A stretch of DNA of 64,000 bases from assembly GCF_000403785.1 (NCBI RefSeq), contig NZ_APHJ01000023.1, positions 1 through 64,000 on the forward strand, read 5' to 3'. The notes beneath the pieces were generated by a model. The model saw only the letters and a list, made by a program, of their open reading frames with translations. It ran no database searches and had not been told where the DNA came from. The translations under genes were made by a program, and so were the position numbers. Source of the stretch: Gillisia sp. CAL575. GTDB lineage: Bacteria > Bacteroidota > Bacteroidia > Flavobacteriales > Flavobacteriaceae. Position 1 is the stretch's first letter, and every line of letters begins with the position of its first letter. This document shows positions 2,034 to 64,000 of this stretch, one piece after another.

Positions 2034-3080
2034 ATGAGGAAATCAAATTTATTGTATTTACTACCGGCCCTAGCTATTTTTTCCTGTAGTAAAGATGAAA
2101 TTACCCCAGAAACAGAACAACAATTATTAGAAACAAAAGAATTAGCTGCAAACGTCGAGGTGGCATACCCAGAGGATTTCGGTCTATTATCAGATGTCTA
2201 TTATGCAGGTAAAAAAATTACTGTAGAAGAAATAGATGGCAATTATATTTACGAAGGAGACATCATTTTTTCAAATGATATGATTACATCACAAGATGTT
2301 AAACTAGTATTTGAAAAAGGCGAAGAGATACCGGCTCAAAAAAGTGTAGGGAGAACGTCAGCTAGATGGCCTGATAATACGGTATATTATTCTATAGATA
2401 GTAATCTTCCAGATCAAAATAGAGCAATTGATGCTATTAAACACTGGGAAGCGAATACGTCCCTAGAATTTGTTCAAAGAACTAGTCAGTCTAACTACAT
2501 TTATTTTACTCCAGGATCAGGATGTTCTTCATATATAGGAATGACCGGGGGTAGACAAAATATAACCCTTGCCAGTGGATGTTCTACTGGAAATACCATT
2601 CATGAAATTGGACATGCAGTAGGATTGTGGCATGAGCAAAGTAGAGTGGATCGTGATAAACACATCAAGATCAATTATGCTAATATTCAAAGTGGGAGAG
2701 AACATAACTTTAATACTTATGAAGAAAGTGGATATGACGGAGATGAGTTCACTTCAAATTTAGATTTTGGTTCTATCATGTTATATAGTTCATATTCTTT
2801 TTCTAGCAATGGGCAGCCAACTATAGTAAAAGTAGATGGAAGTACTTTCAGCGTACAAAGAAATGCTCTGTCTTCTGGAGATAAAACTGGAATTAATGCG
2901 ATGTATCCATCAGGAAATACAGGAGGCACTACCGAGCCTATTGAACCAACTTATATCAACGGAGAATATTATACTGTTGAAGGTTTAACTGTTCTTCGTT
3001 TTTACAATGGATGGTATTACAGCGGTCCTTATGGAATGCGAGCTGTAATACTTGTAAACGGCGTTTGGTATTATAAATAA
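2034..3080 (+). CDS. Astacin-like (M12A) zinc metalloprotease lipoprotein, copy 1
   Basis: The protein is a secreted zinc endopeptidase anchored by lipid. Residues 1-18 form a lipoprotein signal ending in IFSC, followed by SKDE, which fits the Bacteroidota surface-export pattern. Residues ~20-110 are a propeptide-like region. The catalytic domain carries HEIGHAVGLWHEQSR (zinc ligands His190, His194 and His200, catalytic Glu191) and the Met-turn SIMLY (Met249), the astacin signature. A ~45-residue C-terminal tail with 'YINGEYYTVEGLTVL' is shared with the next gene. Substrate is unknown. It lies between members of the modular lipoprotein family, so one inference is that it processes or competes with host or prey surface proteins. 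Confidence 0.93.
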   Translation: MRKSNLLYLLPALAIFSCSKDEITPETEQQLLETKELAANVEVAYPEDFGLLSDVYYAGKKITVEEIDGNYIYEGDIIFSNDMITSQDVKLVFEKGEEIPAQKSVGRTSARWPDNTVYYSIDSNLPDQNRAIDAIKHWEANTSLEFVQRTSQSNYIYFTPGSGCSSYIGMTGGRQNITLASGCSTGNTIHEIGHAVGLWHEQSRVDRDKHIKINYANIQSGREHNFNTYEESGYDGDEFTSNLDFGSIMLYSSYSFSSNGQPTIVKVDGSTFSVQRNALSSGDKTGINAMYPSGNTGGTTEPIEPTYINGEYYTVEGLTVLRFYNGWYYSGPYGMRAVILVNGVWYYK

Positions 3081-3178: not shown

Positions 3179-3306
3179 GTCCGCATTATTTCAACCCACA
3201 GTCTTTTCTATTCACATCTTTTTTTTTCAATTAATTTAAATTGAGAGCTAACTATTAATGCATCTCCCCAATGATAATTAATAATTTAATTTCAAAAAAC
3301 CTACTT

Positions 3307-4428
3307 ATGAAAACACGTAGTTTATTTTATTTACTTCCTGCGCTAGCATTATTCTCATGCAGTGAAGAGCCAATAAATCAGCTGGAAACAGAAAATAAAG
3401 TTGATAATTCTGAGATTACTTTTAAAGCTATGGAATTGGCATTTCCTGGAGAATCTGGAAAAATTTCAGATGTTTATTTTGCAGGAAAGAAAATTCCTAT
3501 AGAAAACATTAATGGAAATTTAGTGTATCAAGGTGATATTATATTCTCTAATGATATGGTGACAAATCAGCCAATTAAAATAGTTTATAATAAAGGAGAA
3601 GAAACCTCTCAACAAAAAAGTGTTGGAAGAACTTCTAATTACTGGCCAGATAATACAGTTTACTATGAAATTGATGGTTCCCTTCCAGATCAGGAAAGAG
3701 TAGCAAATGCAATTGCACATTGGGAATCCAATACCGCAATGAAATTTGTACAACGCTCGGGAGAACCCAATTATATATACTTCACTCCAGGAAGTGGATG
3801 TTCCTCTTATATTGGAATGGTAGGAGGGAGACAGAATATTACTCTTGCAAATGGGTGTTCTACAGGAAATACTATTCATGAAATAGGTCATGCAGTAGGC
3901 CTTTGGCATGAGCAAAGTAGAATTGATAGAAATAATTACATTACTATCAATTTCCAAAACATAGTTTCTGGAGCAGAGCACAATTTTCGAACTTATGAAG
4001 AGAGTGGGTATGATGGAGTGGAATTTACATCTAATCTGGATTTCGGTTCTATAATGATGTATAGTTCTTATTCATTTTCTAGTAATGGTCAACCAACCAT
4101 TGTTAAGAATGATGGAAGTACTTATTCAGCACAGAGAAGTGGTTTATCTGGAGGAGATGTTGAAGGGATTTTTAGTATGTATCCTGGAGAAACTGGTGGA
4201 ACACCACCACCGCCTATTCCTCCAACAGAACCAGAACCTACGCCAACTGAGCCAGAACCAACTAATCCTGAACCTACGAACCCAGAACCAACTTATATCA
4301 ATGGTGAATATTATACTATTGCAGGTTTGACGGTATTAAGAAAAAAGGATAAATGGTTATATAAAAAAGATAGAGGAGGTTGGCAAGAAGTAGAATTAAT
4401 TGACGGTATTTGGTATAATGTGAATTAA
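3307..4428 (+). CDS. Astacin-like (M12A) zinc metalloprotease lipoprotein, copy 2
   Basis: This is a tandem paralogue of the gene at 2034. I chose the ATG at 3307 rather than the in-frame ATG at 3271, because it gives a standard lipoprotein signal (MKTRSLFYLLPALALFSC) and aligns with copy 1. The zinc motif HEIGHAVGLWHEQSR begins at His191, and the Met-turn reads SIMMY. Between the catalytic domain and the shared C-terminal ~45-residue tail is a Pro/Glu/Thr-rich linker of about 35 residues built from PEPT-like units, which copy 1 lacks. The tail's conservation despite different linkers suggests a separate small domain, perhaps for binding or surface retention. The peptidase family is clear; the substrate is not known. 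Confidence 0.93.
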   Translation: MKTRSLFYLLPALALFSCSEEPINQLETENKVDNSEITFKAMELAFPGESGKISDVYFAGKKIPIENINGNLVYQGDIIFSNDMVTNQPIKIVYNKGEETSQQKSVGRTSNYWPDNTVYYEIDGSLPDQERVANAIAHWESNTAMKFVQRSGEPNYIYFTPGSGCSSYIGMVGGRQNITLANGCSTGNTIHEIGHAVGLWHEQSRIDRNNYITINFQNIVSGAEHNFRTYEESGYDGVEFTSNLDFGSIMMYSSYSFSSNGQPTIVKNDGSTYSAQRSGLSGGDVEGIFSMYPGETGGTPPPPIPPTEPEPTPTEPEPTNPEPTNPEPTYINGEYYTIAGLTVLRKKDKWLYKKDRGGWQEVELIDGIWYNVN

Positions 4429-41787: not shown

Positions 41788-42801
41788 ATGAATTTAAACA
41801 ATAAATCTATCCTAATTACAGGAGGAACAGGTTCTCTAGGAAAGGCCTTGACAAAACATTTGTTAGAATCTGGAACAGAAATAAAGAAACTTGTGATCTT
41901 TTCAAGAGATGAGCAAAAGCAATTTGAGATGGCACAGGAGTATCCCGCAGACCAATATCCTCAAATTCGATTTTTCATTGGTGACGTTAGAGACGAAGCT
42001 AGAGTAAAAAGAGCTCTAAAAGGAATAGACTACGTTATTCATGCAGCTGCGATGAAACATGTCCCCATTGCCGAATATAACCCTATGGAATGTGTGAAAA
42101 CCAATATAATGGGAGCAGAAAATATTATTAACGCTTGTTTAGAAACTGAAGTTACTAGAGTAGTTGCCTTATCTACAGACAAAGCTGCAGCACCTATTAA
42201 TTTATATGGTGCCACGAAACTTGCTTCGGACAAATTATTTGTAGCTGCTAATAATATCACCGGATGGAATCCTATTAAATTTTCTGTAGTAAGATATGGC
42301 AATGTTATGGGATCCAATGGTTCCGTAATTCCTTTTTTCCTAAAAAAGAAAAAAGAAGGAATTTTGCCAATAACAGATCCTACGATGACCAGGTTTAATA
42401 TTTCTTTGCAAGGGGGAGTAGATATGGTGATGCATGCTTTAGAGCACGCATGGGGTGGAGAGATATTTGTCCCTAAAATACCATCTTATAAGATCACAGA
42501 TGTTGCTGAAGCTATTGGACCGGAATGCGAAAAACCGATTGTGGGAATTCGTCCAGGTGAAAAAATTCATGAAGAAATGATCACAGCTTCAGATTCTTAC
42601 TACACCTATGATCTAGGTAAATACTATACTATTCTTCCTTCTACACATAAATGGAATTTAAACGAGTTTATCAATGAATTTGGAGCAACAAAAGTAAAGC
42701 CAGGTTTTCAATATAACTCCGCAGACAATGAAGAATGGGAAACTGTTGGAGATCTTAGAAAATTAATTAAGGAGCATGTTGATTTAACGTTTGAAGTATA
42801 A
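41788..42801 (+). CDS. pseB: UDP-N-acetylglucosamine 4,6-dehydratase (inverting)
   Basis: PseB performs the first step of pseudaminic acid synthesis, dehydrating UDP-GlcNAc and inverting C5. The 337-residue protein has 'ILITGGTGSLGKAL', 'SRDEQKQFEMAQEY', 'HAAAMKHVPIAEYNPME', the active region 'STDKAAAPINLYGATK' and 'VVRYGNVMGSNGSVIPFF', a combination that separates PseB from FlmA-unrelated dehydratases. It starts a run pseB-pseC-pseF-pseH with 3 bases or overlaps between genes. Confidence 0.94.
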   Translation: MNLNNKSILITGGTGSLGKALTKHLLESGTEIKKLVIFSRDEQKQFEMAQEYPADQYPQIRFFIGDVRDEARVKRALKGIDYVIHAAAMKHVPIAEYNPMECVKTNIMGAENIINACLETEVTRVVALSTDKAAAPINLYGATKLASDKLFVAANNITGWNPIKFSVVRYGNVMGSNGSVIPFFLKKKKEGILPITDPTMTRFNISLQGGVDMVMHALEHAWGGEIFVPKIPSYKITDVAEAIGPECEKPIVGIRPGEKIHEEMITASDSYYTYDLGKYYTILPSTHKWNLNEFINEFGATKVKPGFQYNSADNEEWETVGDLRKLIKEHVDLTFEV

Positions 42802-42804
42802 ATT

Positions 42805-43998
42805 ATGAACAATTCAATTCCCTATGGACGTCAGAATATAACGCCAGAGGATATTCTTGCAGTTACAGAGGCATTACAGTCAGATTATCTAACCCAAGGA
42901 CCTAGAATTTTAGAATTTGAAAATGAATTCGCATCTTATGTAGGTTCTAAATTTGCGGTTGCCGTTTCTAATGGTACTGCAGCATTGCATCTTAATGCAC
43001 TTGCGTTAGGTGTGAAGCCAGGAAACAAGGTTATTACTACTCCACTAACTTTTGCAGCTTCGGCTAATTGTATACGATATTGTGGAGGTACAGTCGTTTT
43101 TGCTGATATTGATCCTGACACTTATTTATTAGATATCAAAGCTGTACGAAAACTTTTGGAAAGTGCTCCCAGAGGAACTTATCAAGGAATTGTTCCAGTA
43201 GATTTTGCTGGTAGAGCGGTCGATCTCGAAGCTTTTAGAAAATTAGCTGACGAATTTGACTTGTGGATTATAGAAGACTCTTGTCATTCTCCAGGCGGTT
43301 TTTTTATAGATAGTCAAGGTGTACAACAACACTGTGGTAACGGTAATTTTGCTGATTTGGCCATATTTTCTTTCCATCCAGTTAAACATATAGCTTGTGG
43401 TGAAGGAGGTATGATTTCCACGAACGATGAAGCACTTTATAAAAAATTGTTAGCATTAAGGACTCATGGTATAGTTAAAGATGAAGATTTATACACAAAT
43501 AGTATAGAGTTTGCTTCCGCGAAAGCAAGTACCAATCAATATCCTGCGTGGTACATGGAAATGCAAATGCTCGGTTTTAATTATCGTTTAACAGATTTTC
43601 AGGCAGCCTTAGGAACAAGTCAATTACAAAGAGCAGATTTTGGATTGGAAGTTAGAAGAAGAATTGCAAAGACATATTTTCAAGCATTTAAAAATGAAGA
43701 TTTTATCAAAGGTCAATCTGGAGTAATAGAAGGACATGCCTATCATTTATATGTGCTAGAAGTAGAGGATAGATTAGGCTTGTATAATTATTTACGTGAA
43801 AATAATATTTATGCGCAAATACATTATATACCTTGCCATTTAATGCCATATTATAGAGAATTAGGGTGGAAAGAAGGAGATATGCCAATTGCTGAAAATT
43901 ATTATAAACACTGTATTAGTTTGCCTATGTATCCTACATTAACTAGAGATGAACAGGTCTTTGTTATTGAAAAGATAAATGAGTTTTACAATGTCTAA
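42805..43998 (+). CDS. pseC: UDP-4-keto-sugar aminotransferase of the pseudaminic acid pathway
   Basis: PseC transfers an amino group to the 4-keto sugar made by PseB, using pyridoxal phosphate and glutamate. The 397-residue DegT/DnrJ/EryC1-type protein begins 'MNNSIPYGRQNITPEDILAV' and carries the PLP-binding Lys194 in 'FSFHPVKHIACGEGGMI', the 'EDSCHSPGG' strand, and 'FNYRLTDFQAALG'. It starts 3 bases after pseB and overlaps pseF by 8 bases. Confidence 0.94.
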   Translation: MNNSIPYGRQNITPEDILAVTEALQSDYLTQGPRILEFENEFASYVGSKFAVAVSNGTAALHLNALALGVKPGNKVITTPLTFAASANCIRYCGGTVVFADIDPDTYLLDIKAVRKLLESAPRGTYQGIVPVDFAGRAVDLEAFRKLADEFDLWIIEDSCHSPGGFFIDSQGVQQHCGNGNFADLAIFSFHPVKHIACGEGGMISTNDEALYKKLLALRTHGIVKDEDLYTNSIEFASAKASTNQYPAWYMEMQMLGFNYRLTDFQAALGTSQLQRADFGLEVRRRIAKTYFQAFKNEDFIKGQSGVIEGHAYHLYVLEVEDRLGLYNYLRENNIYAQIHYIPCHLMPYYRELGWKEGDMPIAENYYKHCISLPMYPTLTRDEQVFVIEKINEFYNV

Positions 43999-44683
43999 TT
44001 TAGCAATTATTCCAGCTCGGGGAGGCAGTAAACGAATTCCAAGAAAAAACATCAAAGATTTTCTAGGTAAGCCAATTATTGCTTATTCTATTGAGGCTGC
44101 TTTAAAGTCTGACCTTTTTGACGAGGTGATGGTTTCTACAGATGATAAGGAAATTGCTGAAATTGCCATAAAATATGGAGCAAAGGTGCCTTTTTTGCGA
44201 AGTGGGAAAAATGCCGATGATTATGCTACAACTGTGGATGTATTAATAGAGGTAATAGAAAAATATAAAGCCCAGGGAAGAACATTTGAAAATATTGCTT
44301 GCCTGTATCCAAGCGCACCTTTCACCACCTCAAAGAAATTGAAGGAAGCTTATACAATATTGATATCAAAAAGGCTGGATGCAGTATTTCCTGTAATGCC
44401 TTTCAGTTTTCCTATTCAAAGGTCACTGAAGATGAATGAAGGTAAGCTTGAATATTTCTATCCGGAATTTGAAAATTCACGGTCTCAGGATCTGGAAAAA
44501 GCCTATCACGATGCCGGACAGTTTTATTTTATAAACACTTCAAACCTTTTAATTAATAAAAGCATACTATCAAAAAATACCGGAGCTATACTTATTACGG
44601 AATTAGAAGCTCAGGATATTGACAATGAAACCGATTGGAAAATTGCAGAAATTAAATATGAACTCCTACAAAGCACTAAATAA
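43991..44683 (+). CDS. pseF: Pseudaminic acid cytidylyltransferase
   Basis: PseF activates pseudaminic acid with CTP to CMP-pseudaminate, the donor for glycosyltransferases. I chose the ATG at 43991 (MSNLAIIPARGGSKRIP) over the upstream ATG at 43979 because it aligns with the family start. The 230-residue protein shows 'PARGGSKRIPRKNIKDFLGKP', 'VSTDDKEIAEIA' and 'YPSAPFTT', with 'YHDAGQFYF' near the C-terminus, as in PseF/NeuA-type synthetases. Confidence 0.94.
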   Translation: MSNLAIIPARGGSKRIPRKNIKDFLGKPIIAYSIEAALKSDLFDEVMVSTDDKEIAEIAIKYGAKVPFLRSGKNADDYATTVDVLIEVIEKYKAQGRTFENIACLYPSAPFTTSKKLKEAYTILISKRLDAVFPVMPFSFPIQRSLKMNEGKLEYFYPEFENSRSQDLEKAYHDAGQFYFINTSNLLINKSILSKNTGAILITELEAQDIDNETDWKIAEIKYELLQSTK

Positions 44684-45224
44684 GCAAACTTTTAACTCGG
44701 GAAAGTATTCTATAGTTCCACTGAGGATGGAAGACCGCTATGCTATTATGAAATGGCGTAATGAACAGATCTATCATTTAAGACAACACAAAACTCTTAC
44801 AAGAGAAGATCAGGACAAATATTTTGAAACAACAGTGGCAAGTTTATTTAAAAAAGAACAACCTGATCAAATCTTATTTTCTTATTTAAAAAATGACAAA
44901 TGTATTGGTTATGGTGGATTGGTTCATATTAATTGGGTCGATAAAAATGCGGAGATTTCTTTTGTAATGGATACCATATTGGAAAAAGAGAATTTCTCCA
45001 AGCATTGGAGCCTGTTTTTAGGTTTAATTGAGCAAGTAGCCTTTAAAGAATTAAAGCTTTACAAGATATTTACGTTTGCTTTTGACCTTCGTCCACATTT
45101 ATATGAACCCGTTGAAAATGCAGGTTTTGTTAAGGAAGCTACCTTAAAAAAGCAATGTCTTTTTAATGAAGAATATAAAGACATTATTATACATGCTAAG
45201 TTTAACATAACAGAAAAACTTTAA
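44658..45224 (+). CDS. pseH: PseH-like N-acetyltransferase (GNAT)
   Basis: The protein is probably the acetyltransferase that acetylates the 4-amino group of the altrosamine intermediate. I chose the ATG at 44658 (MNSYKALNKQTF), overlapping pseF by 26 bases; the alternative at 44619 is deep inside pseF. The ~188-residue protein has a GNAT pattern: 'VPLRMEDRYAIMKWRNEQIYHLRQ' split over the first strand and helix, 'CIGYGGLVHINW' and 'LYEPVENAGFVKEA'. Position within the pse run supports the name. An unusual acyl donor cannot be excluded. Confidence 0.8.
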   Translation: MNSYKALNKQTFNSGKYSIVPLRMEDRYAIMKWRNEQIYHLRQHKTLTREDQDKYFETTVASLFKKEQPDQILFSYLKNDKCIGYGGLVHINWVDKNAEISFVMDTILEKENFSKHWSLFLGLIEQVAFKELKLYKIFTFAFDLRPHLYEPVENAGFVKEATLKKQCLFNEEYKDIIIHAKFNITEKL

Positions 45225-45228
45225 AACC

Positions 45229-45894
45229 ATGCAAAAAGTATTTATCATAACAGGAGCAAATAGAGGTTTAGGAAAAGCATTTGCAGATATTTTAATACAA
45301 AACGAAAATCATTTTGTTATTTCAATATCAAGAAGTCAAAGTGATGAACAAAAAACCTATGAACCGGAAAACTTTTATTTTTTAAAGTCCGATTTGTCTG
45401 AGAATACTTTAGAGAAAAATATACAAGTTCTAAAAGGGCTAATTGCTAATCAGGACATCTATTTTATTAATAACGCAAGTATCATAGAACCTATAACTAA
45501 AATAGAGCATTTAGATGAAAACGCTATAGATAAGACAATTTCGGTTAATATTAAATCAACAATGTTGATTACTAAATATCTCCTTCGTAATTTTAGTAAT
45601 CATAAATTATCTTTTGTTAATATTAGTTCCGGAGCAGCTAATCGGGCTATTAGTAATTGGTCACTATATTGTGCATCAAAAGCATTTGTTAAAATGTTTT
45701 TTGATGTAGCTGAAAGTGAATATGAACAGCATCGGTTTTTCAATATAGACCCAGGAGTTATGGATACTAATATGCAAAAAAGCATTAGAGAAAACGATTT
45801 TCCAGATTCTTCAAATTTTAAGAATTTGCAAGAAGAAGGAAAATTAAAATCACCAAAAGATGTTGCTTTAGAAATCCTAAATACTGTTTTATGA
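45229..45894 (+). CDS. Short-chain dehydrogenase/reductase inside the pse cluster
   Basis: The 221-residue classical SDR has the NAD(P)-binding TGANRGLG, 'INNASIIEP' and the catalytic Ser...Tyr-x3-Lys in 'VNISSGAANRAISNWSLYCASKA', followed by 'NIDPGVMDTNMQ'. It overlaps the next gene as ATGA, so both are translated together. It is not part of the standard pseudaminic acid pathway, and its substrate is unknown. A keto-reduction or epimerisation that modifies the sugar, or a supporting reaction for the ATP-grasp enzyme two genes on, are possibilities. Confidence 0.85.
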   Translation: MQKVFIITGANRGLGKAFADILIQNENHFVISISRSQSDEQKTYEPENFYFLKSDLSENTLEKNIQVLKGLIANQDIYFINNASIIEPITKIEHLDENAIDKTISVNIKSTMLITKYLLRNFSNHKLSFVNISSGAANRAISNWSLYCASKAFVKMFFDVAESEYEQHRFFNIDPGVMDTNMQKSIRENDFPDSSNFKNLQEEGKLKSPKDVALEILNTVL

Positions 45895-46589
45895 AAATAG
45901 CTGTTATTTCAGATATTCATGGTAATTATGATGCGTTAGTTGCAGTCTTAAAAAAGGCTAAGAAAGAAAATGTTGAGCACATATTAGTTCTTGGAGATAT
46001 TGTAGGGTATTATTATCATCCGGATAAAATATTGAAACTGCTTTCAGAATGGAGTTTTGATATGATCAAAGGGAATCATGAAAATATACTTGAAAGTTTA
46101 ATAGACACACCATCATTAAAAGAATCAATTCGAATAAAATATGGAAGTGGTCATCAAGAAGCTATAAATAAGCTGACAAAGAAGCAGTTAGAATTTTTAA
46201 AAGATTTACCAGAAACTAAATCTGTACAATTTGATGAAGTTTCTTTATTGATGAGTCATGGCAGTCCGTGGTCTAATGACTATTATATTTATCCAGATTG
46301 TGAAAATGAAACCATACTTAAGTGTGATTCAAAAGAACACGATTTTGTATTAATAGGACATTCACATTATGCTTTTGCAATTAAAAACACAAATAGCATC
46401 TTAATAAACCCCGGTTCAGTTGGTCAGTCAAGACAAACAGGAGGAAAAGCATCTTGGTGTATTATTAATACTTTAAATAAGTGTTTTCAATTAGTATCAA
46501 CTGATTATAATATTGAAAATTTAGTATATGAAATTTCAAAAAAAGATACTGAAATAAAATACTTAACACAAATTTTAAAAAGAAAATGA
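45891..46589 (+). CDS. Metallophosphoesterase (YfcE/MJ0936-like) inside the pse cluster
   Basis: The 232-residue protein is a single-domain calcineurin-like phosphoesterase: 'ISDIHGNYDALVAVL' (Asp and His), 'LVLGDIVGYYYHPDKIL', KGNHEN, 'LMSHGSPW', 'IGHSHYAF' and 'NPGSVGQSR' match the small YfcE-type family. It overlaps the SDR by 4 bases and lies 10 bases before the ATP-grasp gene. The normal PseG hydrolase is missing from the cluster, so this hydrolase is one candidate to replace it by cleaving a UDP- or phosphosugar; that is a hypothesis, as PseG has a different fold and no such role is known for this family. Confidence 0.9.
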   Translation: MKIAVISDIHGNYDALVAVLKKAKKENVEHILVLGDIVGYYYHPDKILKLLSEWSFDMIKGNHENILESLIDTPSLKESIRIKYGSGHQEAINKLTKKQLEFLKDLPETKSVQFDEVSLLMSHGSPWSNDYYIYPDCENETILKCDSKEHDFVLIGHSHYAFAIKNTNSILINPGSVGQSRQTGGKASWCIINTLNKCFQLVSTDYNIENLVYEISKKDTEIKYLTQILKRK

Positions 46590-46599
46590 TTTATTATAT

Positions 46600-47550
46600 A
46601 TGATTAAAGCATTAAACATATTAGTTACAGGTTGTGGCGGAGATATTGGGCAAAGTATTGGTAAAATATTATTAAAATCTAGTTATACTAAAAACTTATT
46701 TGGAATCGATATTTCAAATAAAAATGCTGCACAATTTATTTATCCGAATTTTTCAGTTGGTTTACGTTTCACGCACCCGGATTATTTAAAAAAATTGGAA
46801 TTATTTATAGAAGCGCATGCCATTGATATTATCATACCAATTGCAGAGCCGGAACTGAGGTTTTTTTCTGATCAAAATATATTAGATACCATTGGCCGGG
46901 CAAAAATGATAACAGCTTCATCTTTTGCATTAGAAATAGGATTTGATAAATTTAAAACTGCCGAGTTCTTAAAAAGTGAGAACCTTCCTTTCCCAGAAAC
47001 ATTTTTAGCAAAAGATTTAAATACTATTGAGTCCTTTCCCGTTATTCTAAAATCTAAAACAGGTTCAGGGAGTAAAGACATTCATAAGATTAATACGATG
47101 GATGAGTTTTTGTTTTATACCAGAAACGCTATACAAGATTTTGTTGTTCAAGAATTTATAACGGATGAAATTGGGGAATTCACATGTGGTTTGTACAGAA
47201 GTCGTGAAGGTGAAATACGATCTCAAATTTTTAAAAGAGAACTTACAGGAGGCTATAGTGGTTATGGTGAAGTGGTAGAAAGCAATGACATAACATGTCT
47301 CTTAGTTGAATTAGCAGTTAAGTTAGATTTAGTTGGAAGCATTAATGTACAATTAAGAATAACTGAAAATTTGCCTAAGGTTTTTGAAATCAATCCAAGA
47401 TTTTCAAGTACAGTACTTTATAGACATCTTTTTGGTTTTGAGGATTTAATATGGTCTATTGAAGATGCATTGGGATATGAGTTATCTGATAATCGGGAGC
47501 ACGCTACAGGTAGAAAATTTTATAAAGGGTTTCAAGAGTATATTAAATAA
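46600..47550 (+). CDS. ATP-grasp enzyme inside the pse cluster
   Basis: The 316-residue protein has a Rossmann-like N-terminal part ('NILVTGCGGDIGQSIGKIL') and an ATP-grasp core: 'PVILKSKTGSGSKDI' (ATP-binding Lys and Gly loop), 'FVVQEFITDEIGEFTCGL' and the metal-binding 'VFEINPRFSSTV' near residue 265. Such proteins ligate a carboxylate to an amine or other nucleophile using ATP. It resembles the carbamoyl-phosphate synthase-like ATP-grasp group seen in polysaccharide clusters. Its place directly before pseI suggests attachment of an amino acid or other acyl group to the nonulosonic acid or its precursor, which is an inference. Confidence 0.87.
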   Translation: MIKALNILVTGCGGDIGQSIGKILLKSSYTKNLFGIDISNKNAAQFIYPNFSVGLRFTHPDYLKKLELFIEAHAIDIIIPIAEPELRFFSDQNILDTIGRAKMITASSFALEIGFDKFKTAEFLKSENLPFPETFLAKDLNTIESFPVILKSKTGSGSKDIHKINTMDEFLFYTRNAIQDFVVQEFITDEIGEFTCGLYRSREGEIRSQIFKRELTGGYSGYGEVVESNDITCLLVELAVKLDLVGSINVQLRITENLPKVFEINPRFSSTVLYRHLFGFEDLIWSIEDALGYELSDNREHATGRKFYKGFQEYIK

Positions 47551-47558
47551 GAAATTAA

Positions 47559-48608
47559 ATGAAAATAGCAAATTTTATAATTGACCAAGATTCACCAGTT
47601 TTTATTATTGCCGAGTTATCTGCCAATCACAATGGTAGTATAGTAACAGCAATAGAAACAGTAAAAGCCGCAAAACGAGCAGGTGCTAATTGTATTAAAT
47701 TACAAACATTTACAGCTGATACCATCACATTAGATTCAAAAAAGGAAGATTTTAGAATTAACCAAGGCACACTTTGGGATGGGCAATATTTACATGATCT
47801 ATATAAAACGACATTTTTACCTTGGGAATGGCATGAAAAAATTATGCAGGTTGCCAAAGAAGAAGGTTTGATTTGTTTTTCATCGCCATTTGATCCGACT
47901 TCAGTAGAATTTTTAGAAAAATTAAACGTTCCTGCATATAAAATCGCGTCTTTTGAGATTACCGATATTCCTTTGATCGAATTGGTTGCCTCTAAAGGAA
48001 AACCGGTTATAATTTCAACCGGAATTGCCGGGCAGGGAGATATAGAGTTGGCTTTGGATGCCTGCAAAAGAATGGGTAATAATGATATTGCTTTATTAAA
48101 ATGTACATCTTCCTATCCCGCACCTATTGACGAAGCCAATATGGTTATGGTAAAAGATCTGGCAGAACGCTATGGAGTGATCTCCGGTTTGTCGGATCAT
48201 ACAATGGGAAATACCGTACCTGTGGTAGCTACCTGCTTCGGTGCAAAAATTATTGAAAAACATTTTATCTTAGATAAAACGATTGGAGGTGCAGATGCTT
48301 CCTTCTCTATGGATGAGATGGAATTTACTGAAATGGTAAAAGCGGTAAGAGAGGCAGAAAAAGCGATTGGGAAGGTAGATTATACCTTAACCGAAAAACA
48401 AAAAAAAGGCAGGGAGTTTTCCCGGTCTTTATATGTGGTGGAAGATATTAAGACAGGGGAAGTTATTACTGAAAAAAATGTGAGGTCTATTAGGCCAGGT
48501 TTTGGGATGCATCCAAAATATTACGATCAAATTATTGGTCAGAAATTTTCTAAAGGAGTGGAAAAAGGGGATCGGCTTACCAAAGATTCCATTATTGGCT
48601 TTAAATAG
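47559..48608 (+). CDS. pseI: Pseudaminic acid synthase
   Basis: PseI condenses phosphoenolpyruvate with the six-carbon diacetamido sugar to form pseudaminic acid. The 349-residue protein has the NeuB-type barrel ('FIIAELSANHNGSI', 'CIKLQTFTADTITLD', 'KIASFEITDIPLIE', 'LSDHTMGNTVPVVA', 'IIEKHF') and the C-terminal SAF domain ('FSRSLYVVEDIKTGEVIT', 'GFGMHPKYYDQIIGQK') with the PseI-typical wording. It follows the ATP-grasp gene by 8 bases. Its second half looks more GC-rich than nearby genes (28 G or C in the 60 bases from 48001). A second synthase of this superfamily begins at 63252. Confidence 0.93.
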   Translation: MKIANFIIDQDSPVFIIAELSANHNGSIVTAIETVKAAKRAGANCIKLQTFTADTITLDSKKEDFRINQGTLWDGQYLHDLYKTTFLPWEWHEKIMQVAKEEGLICFSSPFDPTSVEFLEKLNVPAYKIASFEITDIPLIELVASKGKPVIISTGIAGQGDIELALDACKRMGNNDIALLKCTSSYPAPIDEANMVMVKDLAERYGVISGLSDHTMGNTVPVVATCFGAKIIEKHFILDKTIGGADASFSMDEMEFTEMVKAVREAEKAIGKVDYTLTEKQKKGREFSRSLYVVEDIKTGEVITEKNVRSIRPGFGMHPKYYDQIIGQKFSKGVEKGDRLTKDSIIGFK

Positions 48609-48777: not shown

Positions 48778-49962
48778 ATGATAATATCTAATGACTGTAT
48801 AGACAACTTGTTATATTCTGCTATAAGAAGTGATAAACATTTAATGGTAAGAAAGAAATCTTATTTTAAGAGAGCCTTGCAATTAATTTATCTGTATGGT
48901 TCAGTAAAAAAGAAAATATACTTTCCGAAAAATCGCAAGGTCGTATTAAATTATTTAGATAAAAGTTACATTGATTTCAATGATTTTAAAGGAAGTCAGG
49001 AGTATAAATTTGACTTGGAGGAAAGTGAGCTTAAGCCTTTATACATAGCAGAATTATTAATAATTGCAGCGTTTCTATTAAATTTTAAAGGGGCTCAAAG
49101 ATTCTTTCTAAAAGCATCTACAAATATAATTGTTAAACTGATAAAAAGCAGGAAAATTGAGGCGCTGATATGTGGACACCCAGATCTTCTAATTTCGTTT
49201 TTAGGGTTTTGTTTAAAAAAAGAAAATAAAGAAGTAATCACTGTACAACACGGAATTTACAATTTATCTTCTTATGAGGTATTATGGTGGGAAAAGGAGA
49301 TAGCAAATGCAATAATCGTCTATGGGCAAGAATTCAAGGAGTTATACATTAAGCAAGGAGTACAACCTGAAAAGGTAAAATTAGGGACACCTTATTTTAA
49401 CAGTGCTTTTAAACAAAGAGAATCGCAGTGCGTAAAGCCGGAAATTAGTAAAGGGAAGGTTATTTTTTTAGGGCAACAGCTTTATAAAATTAGTGATATG
49501 GTTTTTGAAGGTTATAATGAATTTATTTCCTTTCTTATAAATTATTATAAAAATAAACAGGTGGAAGTATACTATAAGCCTCATCCCAGAGAAGATATTC
49601 AACAGAGTTTAACATCGGCCAATATTTCTGCTTTGAAAATTTACGAAAAGGAAGGAAAACCTGAAGATTTATATAATAACTTCGACCTCTATTTTTCTGT
49701 CAATTCTTCCATTCTAATTGAACTTTATCTTCAACAAAAAATTTGTTATCAGGTGGATATTACTATAGGTGATTTTGAATATGATAATTTTAAGAATTTT
49801 ACAGGAATTCCAATGGTCAATATTCAAACATTAGCCAATAAATTAGAAATAGAAAAATATCACTTTCATTACAGCCCAGATTACCTTAATATTCAATTAA
49901 ATAATAATGAATACATGGTTAACCTTGTTAAAGGATTAATTGAAAAGAGTATTATTGAATAG
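48778..49962 (+). CDS. GT-B-like glycosyltransferase with HP and SS motifs, candidate nonulosonic acid transferase
   Basis: The 394-residue protein has no membrane segment of certain type. It carries 'VQHGIYN' near residue 160, the HP motif 'YYKPHPRED' (His269-Pro270) and the SS motif 'SVNSSILIEL' (Ser310-Ser311). These pairs occur in bacterial sialyltransferase families and in CDP-glycerol glycerophosphotransferase/polysialyltransferase-like GT-B enzymes that use CMP- or CDP-donors. Because it directly follows pseI and pseF supplies CMP-pseudaminate, it is the best candidate pseudaminyltransferase here. I could not find the Asp/Glu-Asp/Glu-Gly motif of classical sialyltransferases, so the assignment is tentative. 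Confidence 0.7.
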   Translation: MIISNDCIDNLLYSAIRSDKHLMVRKKSYFKRALQLIYLYGSVKKKIYFPKNRKVVLNYLDKSYIDFNDFKGSQEYKFDLEESELKPLYIAELLIIAAFLLNFKGAQRFFLKASTNIIVKLIKSRKIEALICGHPDLLISFLGFCLKKENKEVITVQHGIYNLSSYEVLWWEKEIANAIIVYGQEFKELYIKQGVQPEKVKLGTPYFNSAFKQRESQCVKPEISKGKVIFLGQQLYKISDMVFEGYNEFISFLINYYKNKQVEVYYKPHPREDIQQSLTSANISALKIYEKEGKPEDLYNNFDLYFSVNSSILIELYLQQKICYQVDITIGDFEYDNFKNFTGIPMVNIQTLANKLEIEKYHFHYSPDYLNIQLNNNEYMVNLVKGLIEKSIIE

Positions 49963-53541: not shown

Positions 53542-54423
53542 TTGGAGTATAGAAGTTTAAATTTTGAGGATGACATAAATGAAGTAGTATTGCTTATAAA
53601 TGATAATTTAGATCCACTTTATACTAAAGAATTAATTCTATGGAAACATCTTCATAATCCTTTTGGAAAGTCTATTGCCATGGTAGCTGTTATAGATGCT
53701 AAAATAGTTGGGGTAGTATTTTACATGCGCTATAATTTTGAAAATAATAAAGGCAAAATTGTTAAAACCATTAGACCTCTAGATGTTTGTACTGCCAGTA
53801 GCCAAAGAGGGAAAGGAATATTCAAAATCTTGTTGCAAAAATGTTTAGAAACCGCAAAAGATTATGATTTGCTGTTTTCAACTCCCAATAAAAATAGTTA
53901 TCCCGAATTTATAAAACTTGGTTGGTCTGCTTTAAAAGATCAATATTATTTTAAAGTGGGAATAATTTCGCCCTTGAATTTTGGTAGAAGTTTAAAATTG
54001 AGCGAAGTTGATTTAAGTATAAATGTAAGCAGGAGTCAAAATAATCATAATTATCTTGTTACCGCTAATTCCTTAGAATTTATAAAATGGCGTTATAAAG
54101 ATTCAGACTATAATATTAAACAATTTATTATAGATGGCAGTATGAATATGATAGTCTATAGAGTTGAAAAACTTAAAGGGATTAAGACTATAATACTATG
54201 TGACTATATGGGTGATGAAACTATAATAAATGAAGCTGTAAAATCTATTTCCCGTTTAGAAAACATCTTTGTTCTATATTGTTTAAATAATAGTATAACA
54301 AAGAATATTAAATTTATTTGGAGTAAAAAACAAGGGGATGCAATAATGATTTATAAAGAAAATAATTGCAATTTTAACGATAATATATCTATTTCTCTAG
54401 GCGATATAGAAGCTAGATTATAA
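53542..54423 (+). CDS. GNAT-family acyltransferase, copy 1 (TTG start)
   Basis: The ~293-residue protein opens with TTG at 53542, the only reasonable start: aligned with the paralogue at 56680, the N-termini correspond ('EYRSLNFEDDINEVVLLI' / 'ILREANIEDIPEIVKVLK'). The GNAT core is 'IAMVAVIDAKIVGVVFYMRY', 'CTASSQRGKGIFKILLQKCL' (acetyl-CoA loop R-x2-G-x-G/A-like) and 'PNKNSYPEFIKLGW'. The second half is a divergent continuation, so it may carry two GNAT-like folds. It probably acylates a sugar amine exposed by the deacetylase upstream. Confidence 0.82.
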   Translation: MEYRSLNFEDDINEVVLLINDNLDPLYTKELILWKHLHNPFGKSIAMVAVIDAKIVGVVFYMRYNFENNKGKIVKTIRPLDVCTASSQRGKGIFKILLQKCLETAKDYDLLFSTPNKNSYPEFIKLGWSALKDQYYFKVGIISPLNFGRSLKLSEVDLSINVSRSQNNHNYLVTANSLEFIKWRYKDSDYNIKQFIIDGSMNMIVYRVEKLKGIKTIILCDYMGDETIINEAVKSISRLENIFVLYCLNNSITKNIKFIWSKKQGDAIMIYKENNCNFNDNISISLGDIEARL

Positions 54424-55567: not shown

Positions 55568-56683
55568 ATGCAAAAAATAAAAGTTCTTCATATAATAAAG
55601 TCATTAGGGAGAGGAGGAGCAGAAACCTTACTGCCGGAAACCCTTAAGCTACATAATAGCGAAAAATTTGAATTTCATTATATTTATTTTCTTCCATGGA
55701 AAGATCAAATGGTCGATGCTATAGAAGTACAAGGCGGAAAAGTTACCTGTTTGGCTGCTAGTAATAATTTAAAATTATTGCAACAATATCCGGCTGTGAT
55801 TAACTATTGTAAAAAACATGCTATAGACTTAATTCACTGCCATTTACCATGGTCTGGGTTTTTAGGAAGAATTGTTTATGCTAAAACCAAAATCCCTGTA
55901 ATTTATACGGAGCACAATATTCAGGAGCGTTATCATATTATTACTAAGCTTCTTAATAAATCCACTTTTAATAGTCAAAGCATTGCCTTAGGTGTTTCCA
56001 AAGATGTGTCCCGCTCTATTAAACAACATATAAAACCTAAAATCCCTATTCAGACATTATTGAACGGAGTTAACACAGATAAATTCACCAGAAATCCACT
56101 CAAAGCACAGAGTATACGTGATCAATACGGTATTCCTGAAGAAGCTGTTGTAATTGGTAACATTGCTGTTTTTAGAGAACAAAAATGTATTCCAGATTGG
56201 TTAAATGCTTTCAAAAAAATTAGTGATAAAAATAACAATACCTATGGTCTTTTAGTAGGAGCAGGGCCTTTAGAAACAGAAATAAAGACACTTGTAAAAG
56301 AGTTGAAACTTGAAAAGAATGTGATCCTTCCAGGTTTACAAACCGATACGGTTTCCTATTTTTCTGCAATGGATATTTTTATGATGAGTTCTGCATTTGA
56401 AGGATTACCCATAGCTTTATTAGAAGCAATGAGCATGCAATGTGCTGTTATTTCTACTAGAGCCGGAGGTGTAGTAGAAGTTGTGAGAGATTCCAAAGAC
56501 GGATTATTGTGCGATGTTGGCGATACTAAAAATATGGCTGATTTAGCTGTAGGTCTTTTAAATGATAAAGATAAAAGAGTTGCCTTTCAAAATGCAGCTC
56601 GTGCCAGAGTAGTGGATTCATTTAGTTTGACGAATATGGTTTCCGAACTTGAGAAGGTATATACTAAATGTAATGAAGTATGA
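55568..56683 (+). CDS. Glycosyltransferase family 4 protein
   Basis: The 371-residue GT-B enzyme has 'VLHIIKSLGRGGAETLLPE' at the N-terminus, 'YTEHNIQERYHI', and 'FMMSSAFEGLPIALLEAMSMQCAVIST' in the C-terminal domain. It resembles GT4 enzymes of capsule loci. Its stop overlaps the start of the GNAT gene as ATGA, so they are translationally coupled. Confidence 0.92.
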   Translation: MQKIKVLHIIKSLGRGGAETLLPETLKLHNSEKFEFHYIYFLPWKDQMVDAIEVQGGKVTCLAASNNLKLLQQYPAVINYCKKHAIDLIHCHLPWSGFLGRIVYAKTKIPVIYTEHNIQERYHIITKLLNKSTFNSQSIALGVSKDVSRSIKQHIKPKIPIQTLLNGVNTDKFTRNPLKAQSIRDQYGIPEEAVVIGNIAVFREQKCIPDWLNAFKKISDKNNNTYGLLVGAGPLETEIKTLVKELKLEKNVILPGLQTDTVSYFSAMDIFMMSSAFEGLPIALLEAMSMQCAVISTRAGGVVEVVRDSKDGLLCDVGDTKNMADLAVGLLNDKDKRVAFQNAARARVVDSFSLTNMVSELEKVYTKCNEV

Positions 56684-57627
56684 TATTAAGGGAAGCTAAT
56701 ATCGAGGATATTCCTGAAATAGTGAAAGTGCTTAAACTAAGTTTGGGAGAGCAAGATTTACCGCTATCTGAATCTATTTGGAATTTCAAGCATAAGGAAA
56801 ATCCTTTTGGTAAATCTTTGGTCTTTGTAGCGGAAGAAGATAATAATATTGTTGGAGTTAGAGCTTTTATGAGATGGGAATGGAAAGTGGGAGATAAAAT
56901 CTATCAAACTTTTAGAGCAGTTGATACGGCAACCCATCCATCACATCAAGGGAAGGGCATTTTTAAGAAACTGACTCTTAAAGCGGTTGAAGTTGCTAAA
57001 GAAAATGGAGATAAGTTCATCTTTAATACCCCTAATGATCAGAGTAGGCCGGGCTATTTGAAAATGGGATGGCAACAAGTAGACAAATTGAAGGTTGCCT
57101 TAAGGCCTGCGTACCATTCATTTTGGAAGTTTATAGACGGAACAGCTACGGAATATTCTACAAACATTCAATGCAGTCTAATGCAGATCGATCAATTGTG
57201 TAATGATTGGAATGATAAATTTGTAAATCGTAAAACTTTAATAACTCCAAAATCCGCAAAATTTCTCTCTTGGAGATATGAGAAAAATCCGCTTCAGAAA
57301 TATGAGATATATGCAAAAAACGGACTTTATCTCGCGGCATATATTAAAATAAGGAAAGGATTAAAAGAACTTAGAATTTCAGAGTGTATTTATAATGGAA
57401 ACTCCAAATCTGAAATCACTAGAATAGTTAAATCTTTTTCAATTAAATTTGGAGCTCATTTTATTTCCTATTCTCCAGAACTTTTGGAATTAAAATGGAA
57501 TTTAGTTAGTTCCAATATTGGTCCGATATTAACTTTGAAAGACCTTAATTTGGATGAAGAGGAAAAATTGCAGTTTGAAGAAATTCATAATTGGGGTTAT
57601 TCTTTGGGTGATCTAGAATTGTTTTAA
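56680..57627 (+). CDS. GNAT-family acyltransferase, copy 2
   Basis: A 315-residue paralogue of the gene at 53542: 'FKHKENPFGKSLVFVAEEDNNIVGVRAFMR', 'DTATHPSHQGKGIFKKLTLKAVE', and 'NTPNDQSRPGYLKMGW' align. It overlaps the upstream GT4 gene by 4 bases and is followed 1 base later by the Wzy-like protein. Same inferred role as copy 1: transfer of an acyl group, possibly not acetyl, to an amino sugar of the repeat unit. Confidence 0.87.
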   Translation: MILREANIEDIPEIVKVLKLSLGEQDLPLSESIWNFKHKENPFGKSLVFVAEEDNNIVGVRAFMRWEWKVGDKIYQTFRAVDTATHPSHQGKGIFKKLTLKAVEVAKENGDKFIFNTPNDQSRPGYLKMGWQQVDKLKVALRPAYHSFWKFIDGTATEYSTNIQCSLMQIDQLCNDWNDKFVNRKTLITPKSAKFLSWRYEKNPLQKYEIYAKNGLYLAAYIKIRKGLKELRISECIYNGNSKSEITRIVKSFSIKFGAHFISYSPELLELKWNLVSSNIGPILTLKDLNLDEEEKLQFEEIHNWGYSLGDLELF

Positions 57628-62014: not shown

Positions 62015-63259
62015 ATGCAATTGGATACCGCACTTATATTGGATATTTTAGGGGCACTTTTTATAATTCCTTTTTTATATCTAGTTACTCAATTAATTTT
62101 TAATTCTCTTCAGAAAAAACATGATTTCTTTAATAGGAGATTATTGAATAAGTTATTTTATTATCACATGTTCTTTGGCGCTGTATATTATGTATATGCT
62201 TCTTTTCATCCATCAGATTCTCACAAATATTTTATATGGCCTCAAAATATTAATAAAAGTTGGTTAGACTTTTTAGGAACAGAAACCACCTTTGTGAATT
62301 TTATATCCTATCCATTTATAAATGGTTTAGGCTTTAGCTATGAAATGATGATGATTTTATATACATGGTTTGGGTTTCTTGGGTTTGTTTATGCATATCT
62401 TTTTTTTAAAGAGAATATTTCTTTGGAGATAAAAGTTTTCAAACATATTGACTTACTTACTTTAATTCTTTTTTTACCTAATATGCATTTTTGGACAGCT
62501 TCCATGGGAAAAGGAGCTATTATGTTTTTGGGTCTAATGCTTTTTGCCTTTTCTATTAAAAATCCCAAATCAAGAATTTTTGGATTGATAATTGGTTCCT
62601 TATTGGTATTCTACATTAGACCGCATATTTTCTTGCTGCTTACGGTTGGTGGTTTGGGTGGGTTTCTATTAGGTAAGGATAGTATCTCATGGAAGAAAAA
62701 AGGTTTTATTGGTTTATCAATAATAGCAGGGCTATTTTTAGTTCATGAGCAAATTTTGGCTGTTGTTCACTTAAACAATTCAAAAGATCTTTTAGGAGAT
62801 TTTTTGAAATTTACTACGGCGAGATCAAATGATCTAGATAATGCTGGTTCCGGTGTTAATATGGCAGGTTATTCTTTACCAGAGAAATTCTTCACTTTTT
62901 GGTTCAGACCTTTATTTTTTGATGCTCCAGGTATTTTGGGAATTATTATCTCTGCAGAGAATTTGATTTACCTCTTGCTTTCTTTAAAAATTATTAAACT
63001 TGATTTTTTGAAATTTTTAAAAAATGCACCTATCAATGTAAGAATGAGTCTTTTGTTGTTTTTAATAACATCATTTGCAATGACTTTTGTAATGTCTAAC
63101 TTGGGTATCATCATTAGACAAAAATCTATGGTCATGTATTTTCTGTTTTTTGTTATCTATTACTATCTTGCTCACGAAAAAACATTGTTGGATAAATTAA
63201 ATTTAACAAACATAAATACGCCAAAATTAGAGATGCAGCGTAAAACTACATATGGATAA
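62015..63259 (+). CDS. Wzy-like polytopic membrane protein, copy 2 (candidate polymerase)
   Basis: The 414-residue protein has about 10 predicted membrane segments and is a paralogue of the gene at 57629; shared segments include 'LILFLPNMHFWTASMGKG', 'FYIRPHIF', 'AGSGVNMAGYSLPEKFFTFW' and 'FVMSNLGIIIRQKSMVMYF'. It overlaps the following nonulosonic acid synthase gene by 8 bases. Two paralogues in one locus suggest two polymers or two linkages, or one non-functional copy; the sequence alone does not decide. Confidence 0.75.
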   Translation: MQLDTALILDILGALFIIPFLYLVTQLIFNSLQKKHDFFNRRLLNKLFYYHMFFGAVYYVYASFHPSDSHKYFIWPQNINKSWLDFLGTETTFVNFISYPFINGLGFSYEMMMILYTWFGFLGFVYAYLFFKENISLEIKVFKHIDLLTLILFLPNMHFWTASMGKGAIMFLGLMLFAFSIKNPKSRIFGLIIGSLLVFYIRPHIFLLLTVGGLGGFLLGKDSISWKKKGFIGLSIIAGLFLVHEQILAVVHLNNSKDLLGDFLKFTTARSNDLDNAGSGVNMAGYSLPEKFFTFWFRPLFFDAPGILGIIISAENLIYLLLSLKIIKLDFLKFLKNAPINVRMSLLLFLITSFAMTFVMSNLGIIIRQKSMVMYFLFFVIYYYLAHEKTLLDKLNLTNINTPKLEMQRKTTYG

Positions 63260-64000
63260 ATCTACATATTTAATCGGTGAAATTGGTCAGAATCATAATG
63301 GTTCTGTAGAGTTGGCTAAATTAATTGTAGATGTAGCGGCCCGACCTATAGTTGATGATCTTTTTAGTCATCAATTAAAGAGTATGGACGCTATTAAGCT
63401 TACTAAGAGAGATCTGGATTATGAACTTTCCAAAACTGCTTTATCTAAAACATATACAAGTATTCATTCTTTCGGAAAAACATATGGTGAGCATAGGCAA
63501 GCTTTAGAACTCACATATGAAGAACATTTAGAGATTTATAACTATGCTAAGACTAAAAATTTAGACGTCGTAGAAACACTTTGCGCTCCCAGTTGTTTAA
63601 ATATCTTAAATTATTTTACCCCAGATAAATTAAAAGTGGCCTCTCGAGATCTTACCAACTTACCCCTTTTAGAGGCTTTAGCTCAATCTAAAATACCAAT
63701 AATACTTTCCACAGGAATGGGAGGCCAAGAAGAGTTGAATGAAGCTTTGGAGGTGATTTCCAAACATCACGAAAACATCTCTATACTTCATTGCGTTTCA
63801 GAATATCCAACTAATCCAATTCATGTAAATTTAAGATCTATCTCATATTTAAAGGAGCAATATCCTAATTACAATATAGGTTATTCAGATCATACTATTG
63901 GTATTTCAACTCCTATTGCAGCTGTTGCAATGGGAGCAAATATTATTGAGAAGCATTTAACATTAGATCGAAAAATGAAAGGTACAGATCAAGCTGGTTC
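63252..64000 (+). CDS. N-acetylneuraminate synthase-family protein (3' end outside the window)
   Basis: The frame opens with ATG at 63252 and stays open to the last base. It begins 'MDKSTYLIGEIGQNHNGSVEL', and continues with 'VVETLCAPSCLNIL', 'IILSTGMGGQEELNEAL', 'CVSEYPTNP' and 'GYSDHTIGISTPIAAVAMGA', 'IIEKHLTLDRKMKGTDQA', which are NeuB-family barrel motifs, so this is a second nonulosonic acid (sialic acid-like) synthase alongside PseI. A loop region near residues 30-75 differs from typical NeuB. Its product, and any cytidylyltransferase partner, would lie beyond the window. It is probably co-translated with the Wzy-like gene. Confidence 0.87.
   Translation, partial: MDKSTYLIGEIGQNHNGSVELAKLIVDVAARPIVDDLFSHQLKSMDAIKLTKRDLDYELSKTALSKTYTSIHSFGKTYGEHRQALELTYEEHLEIYNYAKTKNLDVVETLCAPSCLNILNYFTPDKLKVASRDLTNLPLLEALAQSKIPIILSTGMGGQEELNEALEVISKHHENISILHCVSEYPTNPIHVNLRSISYLKEQYPNYNIGYSDHTIGISTPIAAVAMGANIIEKHLTLDRKMKGTDQAG

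Follow-up and report, generated by a model that had tools for sequence, protein, structure and literature searches.

A pseudaminic acid cluster without PseG

The stretch of DNA analysed here, hereafter the window, comprises positions 1 to 64,000 of contig NZ_APHJ01000023.1 (assembly GCF_000403785.1) from Gillisia sp. CAL575, a member of the Flavobacteriaceae in the phylum Bacteroidota, and carries a cluster for the synthesis of pseudaminic acid. The genes form a single co-oriented run, in the order pseB, pseC, pseF, an open reading frame (ORF) for a GNAT-like protein, a short-chain dehydrogenase/reductase (SDR), a metallophosphoesterase, an ATP-grasp protein and pseI (Table 1). The chemistry of the pse families is known, and two reports (PMC7910423, PMC6388019) outline the PseB and PseC steps, acetylation at N4 by PseH, release of UDP by PseG, condensation by PseI and activation by PseF. 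As the original prediction had it, pseB, pseC, pseF and pseI are present; the products of all four score above their NCBIfam equivalog cut-offs, which places them in the pseudaminic acid pathway. Likewise, three genes, here called the cassette, lie between the ORF that it took for pseH and pseI, the first two overlapping by 4 bases and the third starting 10 bases on.

Across the genome, which spans 3.64 Mb and is 99.5% complete, a search with TIGR03590 finds no PseG. The sole match reaches 26.4 bits against a cut-off of 153.55, and the ORF that carries it reads as MurG and adjoins an FtsW-like ORF (both named by eye). The absence of pseG, first claimed for the cluster, thus extends to the genome, and the suggestion that PseG might be coded elsewhere finds no gene to rest on; nor did this search yield the genomic pseG that had been named as evidence against the prediction. 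The ORF directly after pseI (48778–49962) was considered as a hidden PseG and rejected, since it matches alpha-2,8-polysialyltransferase (1.8e-06) and no NCBIfam family; it is a candidate pseudaminic acid transferase.

Table 1. Genes of the pseudaminic acid cluster in the window, with the profile match of each product
Gene and product	Position	Strand	Profile match
pseB, UDP-GlcNAc 4,6-dehydratase (inverting)	41788..42801	+	TIGR03589, 508.2 bits (cut-off 407.75)
pseC, 4-aminotransferase (DegT family)	42805..43998	+	TIGR03588, 438 bits (cut-off 423.5)
pseF, pseudaminic acid cytidylyltransferase	43979..44683	+	TIGR03584, 303 bits (cut-off 205.7)
PseX, GNAT-fold protein without CoA loop, predicted PseG replacement	44658..45224	+	TIGR03585, 20.9 bits (cut-off 93.1)
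Cassette gene 1, SDR (sepiapterin/benzil reductase-like)	45229..45894	+	PF00106 (adh_short), 1.4e-31
Cassette gene 2, calcineurin-like metallophosphoesterase (YfcE-like)	45891..46589	+	PF12850 (Metallophos_2), 3.3e-26
Cassette gene 3, ATP-grasp carboxylate-amine ligase, predicted to install the N-acyl group in place of PseH	46600..47550	+	PF02655 (ATP-grasp_3), 2.1e-11
pseI, pseudaminic acid synthase	47559..48608	+	TIGR03586, 494.8 bits (cut-off 340.25)

PseX lacks the CoA loop of the GNAT fold

We use the label PseX for the GNAT-like protein encoded between pseF and the cassette, and for its relatives. Translation probably begins with the ATG at 44658, giving a protein of 188 residues and an overlap of 26 bases with pseF; read from this ATG, PseX scores 21.2 bits against the PseH family TIGR03585, below the cut-off. 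The AlphaFold model (pLDDT 93.9) has the GNAT fold, and Helicobacter pylori PseH (4ri1) comes second in a search of the Protein Data Bank with it (TM 0.75). PseX is not a member of the PseG sequence family TIGR03590, and the fold of PseG is GT-B; that PseX works like PseG is something we infer, not a matter of family membership. PseX aligns at 43–66% identity with seven relatives, all from Flavobacteriaceae genomes that lack PseG.

GNATs bind coenzyme A (CoA) through a loop after strand 4, with the motif Q/R-x-x-G-x-G/A. In a profile alignment, the corresponding loop of SpeG (QGKGFA) falls on a stretch of PseX without the motif. Among 77 aligned PseX rows, chosen by the peptide patterns CIGYGGLV and WRN...L, none has Gly-x-Gly within residues 104–117 and six have a single glycine there. 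The PseH-like tails that are fused to many PseX proteins, described below, carry glycine at both loop positions in 30 of 36 cases. These column counts replace a loose regular expression for the loop, which matched the CIGYG stretch in 28 of the 77 PseX rows and missed 11 of the 36 tails. The earlier assignment of this ORF as pseH is not confirmed, given the low family score (Table 1), the missing loop and the further finding that the PseX family never occurs alongside PseG where both were sought.

The two kinds of GNAT domain also differ in conservation: 33 columns are invariant over the 77 PseX rows and 4 over the 36 fused tails, although the choice of the PseX rows by peptide patterns inflates the former number. 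The difference would be accounted for if PseX had a fixed substrate and the tails used changing acyl donors.

PseX and PseG replace each other genome by genome

The distribution of the two proteins was followed in two draws of genomes and one scan of contigs. In the family draw (249 genomes, 23 with PseI above the cut-off), 13 PseI genomes have PseG above the cut-off, eight have a strong PseX and none has both, a partition that involves some circularity, since the PseG-less genomes of this draw served to define PseX in the first place. The remainder consists of G190, where a PseG match lies beside PseI but is divided between two frames, and G140, with neither protein, which is 75% complete and has its cluster at a contig end. 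The phylum draw (392 genomes, completeness at least 90) contains 57 genomes with PseI above the cut-off, G366 and G564 with PseI below it being excluded, and shares only G000 and G157 with the family draw on the PseX side. PseG was accepted here at E<=1e-8 (32 of 48 matches also exceed the curated cut-off) and PseX at E<=1e-20. The 57 genomes divide into 48 with PseG and nine with PseX; no genome has both and none has neither. Nine genomes drawn at random would coincide with the nine PseG-less ones with a chance of about 1e-10, a figure that is too small because of kinship among the genomes. Each genome contributed at most five scored candidates in the phylum searches for PseI and ATP-grasp, and at most 13 in the family search for PseX.

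Scanning genome contigs with the PseX alignment gives 233 relatives, the best 80 of which were kept; these are from Bacteroidota by title, with the exception of L121 (Endomicrobium). A profile of nine PseG sequences finds no PseG in any of these 80 loci at E<=10. There is no PseG match at E<=1e-8 either in the whole genomes behind 50 of the loci, whose completeness is not given (15 are metagenome-assembled by title, and four, recognized by identical PseI, are also in the draws). In a FastTree phylogeny of PseI with 149 rows, at least 12 changes between PseG and PseX types are needed, eight of them forced by supported branches; four identical rows were dropped, L062 was left unlabelled, and L019, L061, L186, L192 and L193 were labelled PseG by hand. 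Genera g127 and g248 each contain both types. The split between PseX and PseG is not one lineage split.

PseX also resembles PseG in its place, preceding, or fused to, an acyl module ahead of PseI. An acyl module (GNAT, formyltransferase or ATP-grasp) is fused to PseX or lies between PseX and PseI in all 83 PseX loci with a PseI match: 34 have a fused GNAT, 20 a GNAT, 11 a formyltransferase, 10 an ATP-grasp protein and eight two kinds of module. Four of 87 PseX loci were dropped for want of a PseI match, L081 and L147 being cut or fragmented. A module in the like place is present in 51 of 56 PseG loci; the count leaves out three of 59 loci whose PseG is located on a different contig, and L019/L055 (G016) stands outside the counts. 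The local profiles behind these numbers were each built from four to 10 sequences, and the GNAT profile, applied to the PseG loci afterwards, derives from the PseX tails (together with the separate GNATs of PseX loci in the slot count).

The PseX gene takes two forms. In the one, PseX has about 186 residues and is followed by a separate enzyme and then by pseI; in the other, found in 36 of the 80 loci, it has about 335 residues, the additional C-terminal tail has about 150, and pseI mostly comes directly next. One such tail was scanned against Pfam and is a GNAT (PF13302), and all 36 tails match the PseH profile TIGR03585 at E<=0.001. Of the separate enzymes, those scanned proved to be GNATs or formyltransferases; one formyltransferase came with a PIG-L deacetylase, and one GNAT with two KAS III proteins. 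The PseG loci likewise have PseG of about 335 residues with a separate module, PseG-GNAT fusions of about 490 residues, and one PseG-formyltransferase fusion of 629 residues. In all, PseG-GNAT, PseG-formyltransferase, PseX-GNAT and PseX-ATP-grasp fusions occur. Since PseX occupies the place of PseG and is accompanied by a further acyl enzyme, it is most simply understood as taking over the task of PseG.

Several loci show variations on this arrangement. In L088 (10558–13448), the slot holds a GNAT together with a pair of KAS III proteins, of which one has a carrier-protein domain, and the acyl group is perhaps made on the spot. In L097 (7765–9145), a formyltransferase stands beside a GNAT together with a PIG-L deacetylase, and perhaps one acetyl group is removed and a formyl group added; L097 is the one locus of this type that was scanned, and L110, L115, L130, L133 and L137 have similar gene sizes. 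A weak PseX-like ORF (55.9 bits) in G237:C13:188178-189714 lies directly beside a NeuB-like synthase below the PseI cut-off; PseX-like proteins may serve other nonulosonic acids too. This ORF was not counted as PseX, and G237 lies outside the PseG search.

The cassette, the proposed pathway and known systems

In the cassette, the SDR motif TGxxxGxG, Tyr147 and Lys151 are invariant in nine aligned sequences, and the metal motifs DxH, GDxxG, GNH and GHxH of the phosphoesterase are invariant in 10 of 10, which confirms its family. The ATP-grasp protein scores 44.6 bits against PF02655 (cut-off 23.2) and 192.7 bits against NF009402, below the cut-off of 218; its model (pLDDT 77.9) has 2pn1 at the top of the fold search (TM 0.70), so that family and fold agree. 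Its identity ranges from 89 to 58% in eight PseX loci. The full cassette occupies the acyl slot, with the same neighbours, in the window and in seven PseX loci of the scan, and a slot GNAT or formyltransferase is found in none of the 10 ATP-grasp PseX loci. Its recurrence in this setting shows the arrangement to be no chance association.

The cassette is not confined to pseG-less genomes, where the original prediction had proposed to look for it alongside the other pse genes. All three genes accompany PseG above the cut-off in G240 (L054) and G584 (L209); G409 (L200), also with PseG above the cut-off, has the phosphoesterase and ATP-grasp genes with an extended SDR, and in G016 the phosphoesterase and ATP-grasp genes adjoin pseI while PseG, above the cut-off, lies on another contig. 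More distant relatives show the set again with exchanged parts: in G516, PseX is fused to ATP-grasp and accompanied by a HAD phosphatase, while the PseX of G317 stands with an epimerase-ATP-grasp fusion and a HAD-like ORF (named by eye from the likeness to G516). Of the 392 genomes in the phylum draw, six match the ATP-grasp profile at E<=1e-30. Three of these matches adjoin pseI (G000, G584 and G409); the three weaker ones (G340, G543 and G260) come from clusters without a PseI-like match, in the vicinity of a DegT aminotransferase, a Rossmann protein and a phosphatase, which is a metallophosphoesterase in G340 and a HAD protein in G543 and, by eye, in G260. These recurring sets are consistent with a module that attaches an acid to a newly formed sugar amine. 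Cassette homologues in clusters unrelated to nonulosonic acids had, together with a genomic pseG, been named as evidence against the prediction, and the three distant sets without PseI count weakly to that effect while still fitting N-acylation. The other suggestion of the original prediction, that the cassette adds a modification such as an acyl group through the ATP-grasp enzyme, is most likely right.

In four cassette clusters of the scan (L086, L087, L092 and L156), there is no PseF match next to PseX. The place of PseF, upstream of PseX, is taken, by eye, by a GNAT-like ORF of about 180 residues, an ORF of about 292 residues, and SpsF-like and aminotransferase-like ORFs, the last two fused in L156; these clusters perhaps make an amino-nonulosonic acid.

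We propose that the cluster encodes a variant route to a CMP-activated pseudaminic acid derivative, with PseX in place of PseG and the cassette in place of PseH, and put the probability of this reading at roughly 0.7. PseB and PseC would convert UDP-GlcNAc into a UDP-4-amino-4,6-dideoxy-L-altrose derivative, as established for their families. The ATP-grasp enzyme, in the stead of PseH, would activate a carboxylic acid as the acyl phosphate and join it as an amide to the 4-amine, which becomes N7 of the finished sugar, and the phosphatase and SDR would supply or finish the acid. PseX would then free the hexose from UDP in the stead of PseG, PseI would condense it with phosphoenolpyruvate, and PseF would activate the product with CMP. 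Acylation of the 4-amine by the cassette is very probable, the amine as substrate of the ATP-grasp enzyme being suggested by the place of the gene in the cluster; hydrolysis catalysed by PseX itself is a prediction that we hold to be probable. The acid can be guessed at tentatively: glycerate, or a hydroxy acid like it, is suggested by a precedent in Neisseria, the N7-glyceroyl group of Tannerella (both discussed below) and the recurring phosphatase, which could convert phosphoglycerate into glycerate; for glycerate itself we put the chance at less than even.

Several observations weigh against this proposal, besides the partial circularity of the family draw and the pattern-based choice of PseX rows noted above. 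The TIGR03585 cut-off is a weak test, as a fused PseH-like tail (the one tail for which a score is shown) reaches 44.7 bits and thus also falls below 93.1. Tyr149 of PseX is nearly invariant, GNATs often use a tyrosine as general acid, and another acyl-type chemistry for PseX is conceivable; we know of no GNAT-fold hydrolase of nucleotide sugars. L129 and L143, the other two dropped PseX loci, have PseX without a PseI match in about 19 kb, and the genes listed around PseX in L129 include no other Pse gene. No acyl module is recognized by the local profiles in 5 of 56 PseG loci, and more than one kind is present in 8 of 83 PseX loci and 3 of 56 PseG loci. In addition, L082 has the phosphoesterase and ATP-grasp genes without the SDR in a PseX locus. 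Lastly, a GNAT-like ORF follows pseC in the cassette clusters of G069 and G189, and the window itself has GNAT-like ORFs downstream at 53542–54423 and 56680–57627 (all by eye); such ORFs could supply the acetylation.

The original prediction had looked to the cassette phosphoesterase for the missing hydrolysis. Replacement of PseG by an unrelated enzyme most likely stands, through the very gene that was called pseH; replacement by the phosphoesterase is not supported. With the 44658–45224 protein as a true PseH, the phosphoesterase would have to cleave UDP from the sugar, and the intact metal motifs fit this, as do the LpxH-type enzymes of the superfamily, which cleave a UDP-sugar at the pyrophosphate. 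Such cleavage, however, leaves a sugar phosphate, which is not known as a substrate of PseI. Moreover, 73 of the 83 PseX loci have no ATP-grasp in the slot, yet none has PseG in the locus or in the genomes searched; taken together with the cassettes that accompany PseG and the absent CoA loop of PseX, this makes the phosphoesterase a highly improbable replacement.

PseX could instead be an unusual but real PseH; the cassette would then modify another position, and the removal of UDP would fall to a housekeeping enzyme, to PseI or to an enzyme of the NeuC/LegG type coded elsewhere. The shared fold, the match of 75 of the 77 PseX rows to TIGR03585 at E<=0.001, and a NeuC-like ORF beside a NeuB-like synthase on another contig of the genome (L064 10349–11479, by eye) are consistent with this. 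What would not be expected of a PseH is that it replaces PseG genome by genome, that a further acyl enzyme accompanies it in 83 of 83 loci, and that it is fused to a second, PseH-like GNAT that has the loop, and we regard this explanation as unlikely. Slightly less likely still is a non-catalytic role for PseX, as a partner enabling PseI or the acyl enzyme to cleave or use the UDP-sugar, which would make PseG dispensable. Such a partner would account for the partition and for the position of PseX after pseF and ahead of the acyl enzyme or PseI, and degenerate GNAT folds can be non-catalytic; the 33 invariant columns over 77 rows, many of them polar, resemble an active site, even if some of these columns fall within the patterns by which the rows were chosen.

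On balance, we favour the view that PseX represents a new enzyme class, in which the acetyltransferase fold of PseH has lost CoA binding and now serves a nucleotide-sugar hydrolase, that PseG and PseX have been swapped many times in Bacteroidota, and that a swappable acyl slot sets the N7 group. The pathway itself is known, and PseX would be new as an enzyme; among the open-licence papers listed by literature searches (20 of 661 in one case), no title or abstract opening concerns a replacement for PseG. If the proposal is correct, many pseudaminic acid clusters in Bacteroidota are complete in spite of their incomplete appearance, and a gene called PseH-like or GNAT by profile searches encodes a UDP-sugar hydrolase, to our knowledge the first GNAT fold to hydrolyse a nucleotide sugar. 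Clusters could then be read by a simple rule, PseG or PseX, acyl slot, PseI, which predicts the N7 group.

Further nonulosonic acid genes lie close by and elsewhere in the genome. A second NeuB-like synthase starts at the end of the window (63252–64000) and runs to about 64298 of the contig (L063 3253–6365); it is followed, by eye, by an ORF of about 255 residues, an ORF resembling HAD phosphatases and one resembling the cytidylyltransferase SpsF; this locus perhaps encodes a second nonulosonic acid route. On another contig (L064 8583–11479), NeuA-like, NeuB-like and NeuC-like ORFs stand in a row as a third set (NeuA and NeuC by eye). Also in the window, adjacent astacin-like metalloprotease ORFs at 2034–3080 and 3271–4428 both have a HEIGHAVGLWHEQSR stretch (by eye). 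Promoter-like sites number 52, against 39.2 (standard deviation 7.0) in shuffled sequence, and terminator-like sites 6, against 3.9 (standard deviation 2.0); neither count was used.

In comparison with known enzymes, PseX resembles PseH (TIGR03585; 4ri1) in its GNAT fold and gene neighbourhood and differs from it in lacking the loop for the CoA pyrophosphate and in being often fused to, or adjoined by, a PseH-like GNAT. It resembles PseG (TIGR03590) in place, neighbours, similar fusions and genome-by-genome replacement, and differs in having the GNAT rather than the GT-B fold, its hydrolysis being a prediction. The cassette has a published precedent, compared by description, in Neisseria PglB2, an ATP-grasp enzyme in the place of an acetyltransferase acting on a UDP-4-amino-trideoxyhexose. 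According to PMC11130364 and PMC6959607, the latter using the word 'proposed', the acetyltransferase PglB (diNAcBac) and the ATP-grasp PglB2 (GATDH), which gives a glyceramido sugar, are mutually exclusive. Unlike PglB and PglB2, which are fused to a phosphoglycosyltransferase and belong to the bacillosamine route, the ligase of the cassette is a separate protein, accompanied by an SDR and a phosphatase, in the pseudaminic route. SDR-like and ATP-grasp genes also occur, with a NeuB-like gene, in sfmABCDE of Shewanella oneidensis for a flagellin nonulosonic acid, an organism that PMC3765264 reports to be without clear PseH, PseG, PseI and PseF; as described there, the sfm operon has an ATP-grasp protein of 412 residues, a thiamine pyrophosphate enzyme and a methyltransferase, and no phosphoesterase. 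Finally, the pseudaminic acid of Tannerella is described (PMC6388019) as carrying an N7-glyceroyl group, and the cluster of Tannerella forsythia (PMC6120980) includes a reported pseG (Tanf_01235), so PseX may not be involved there.

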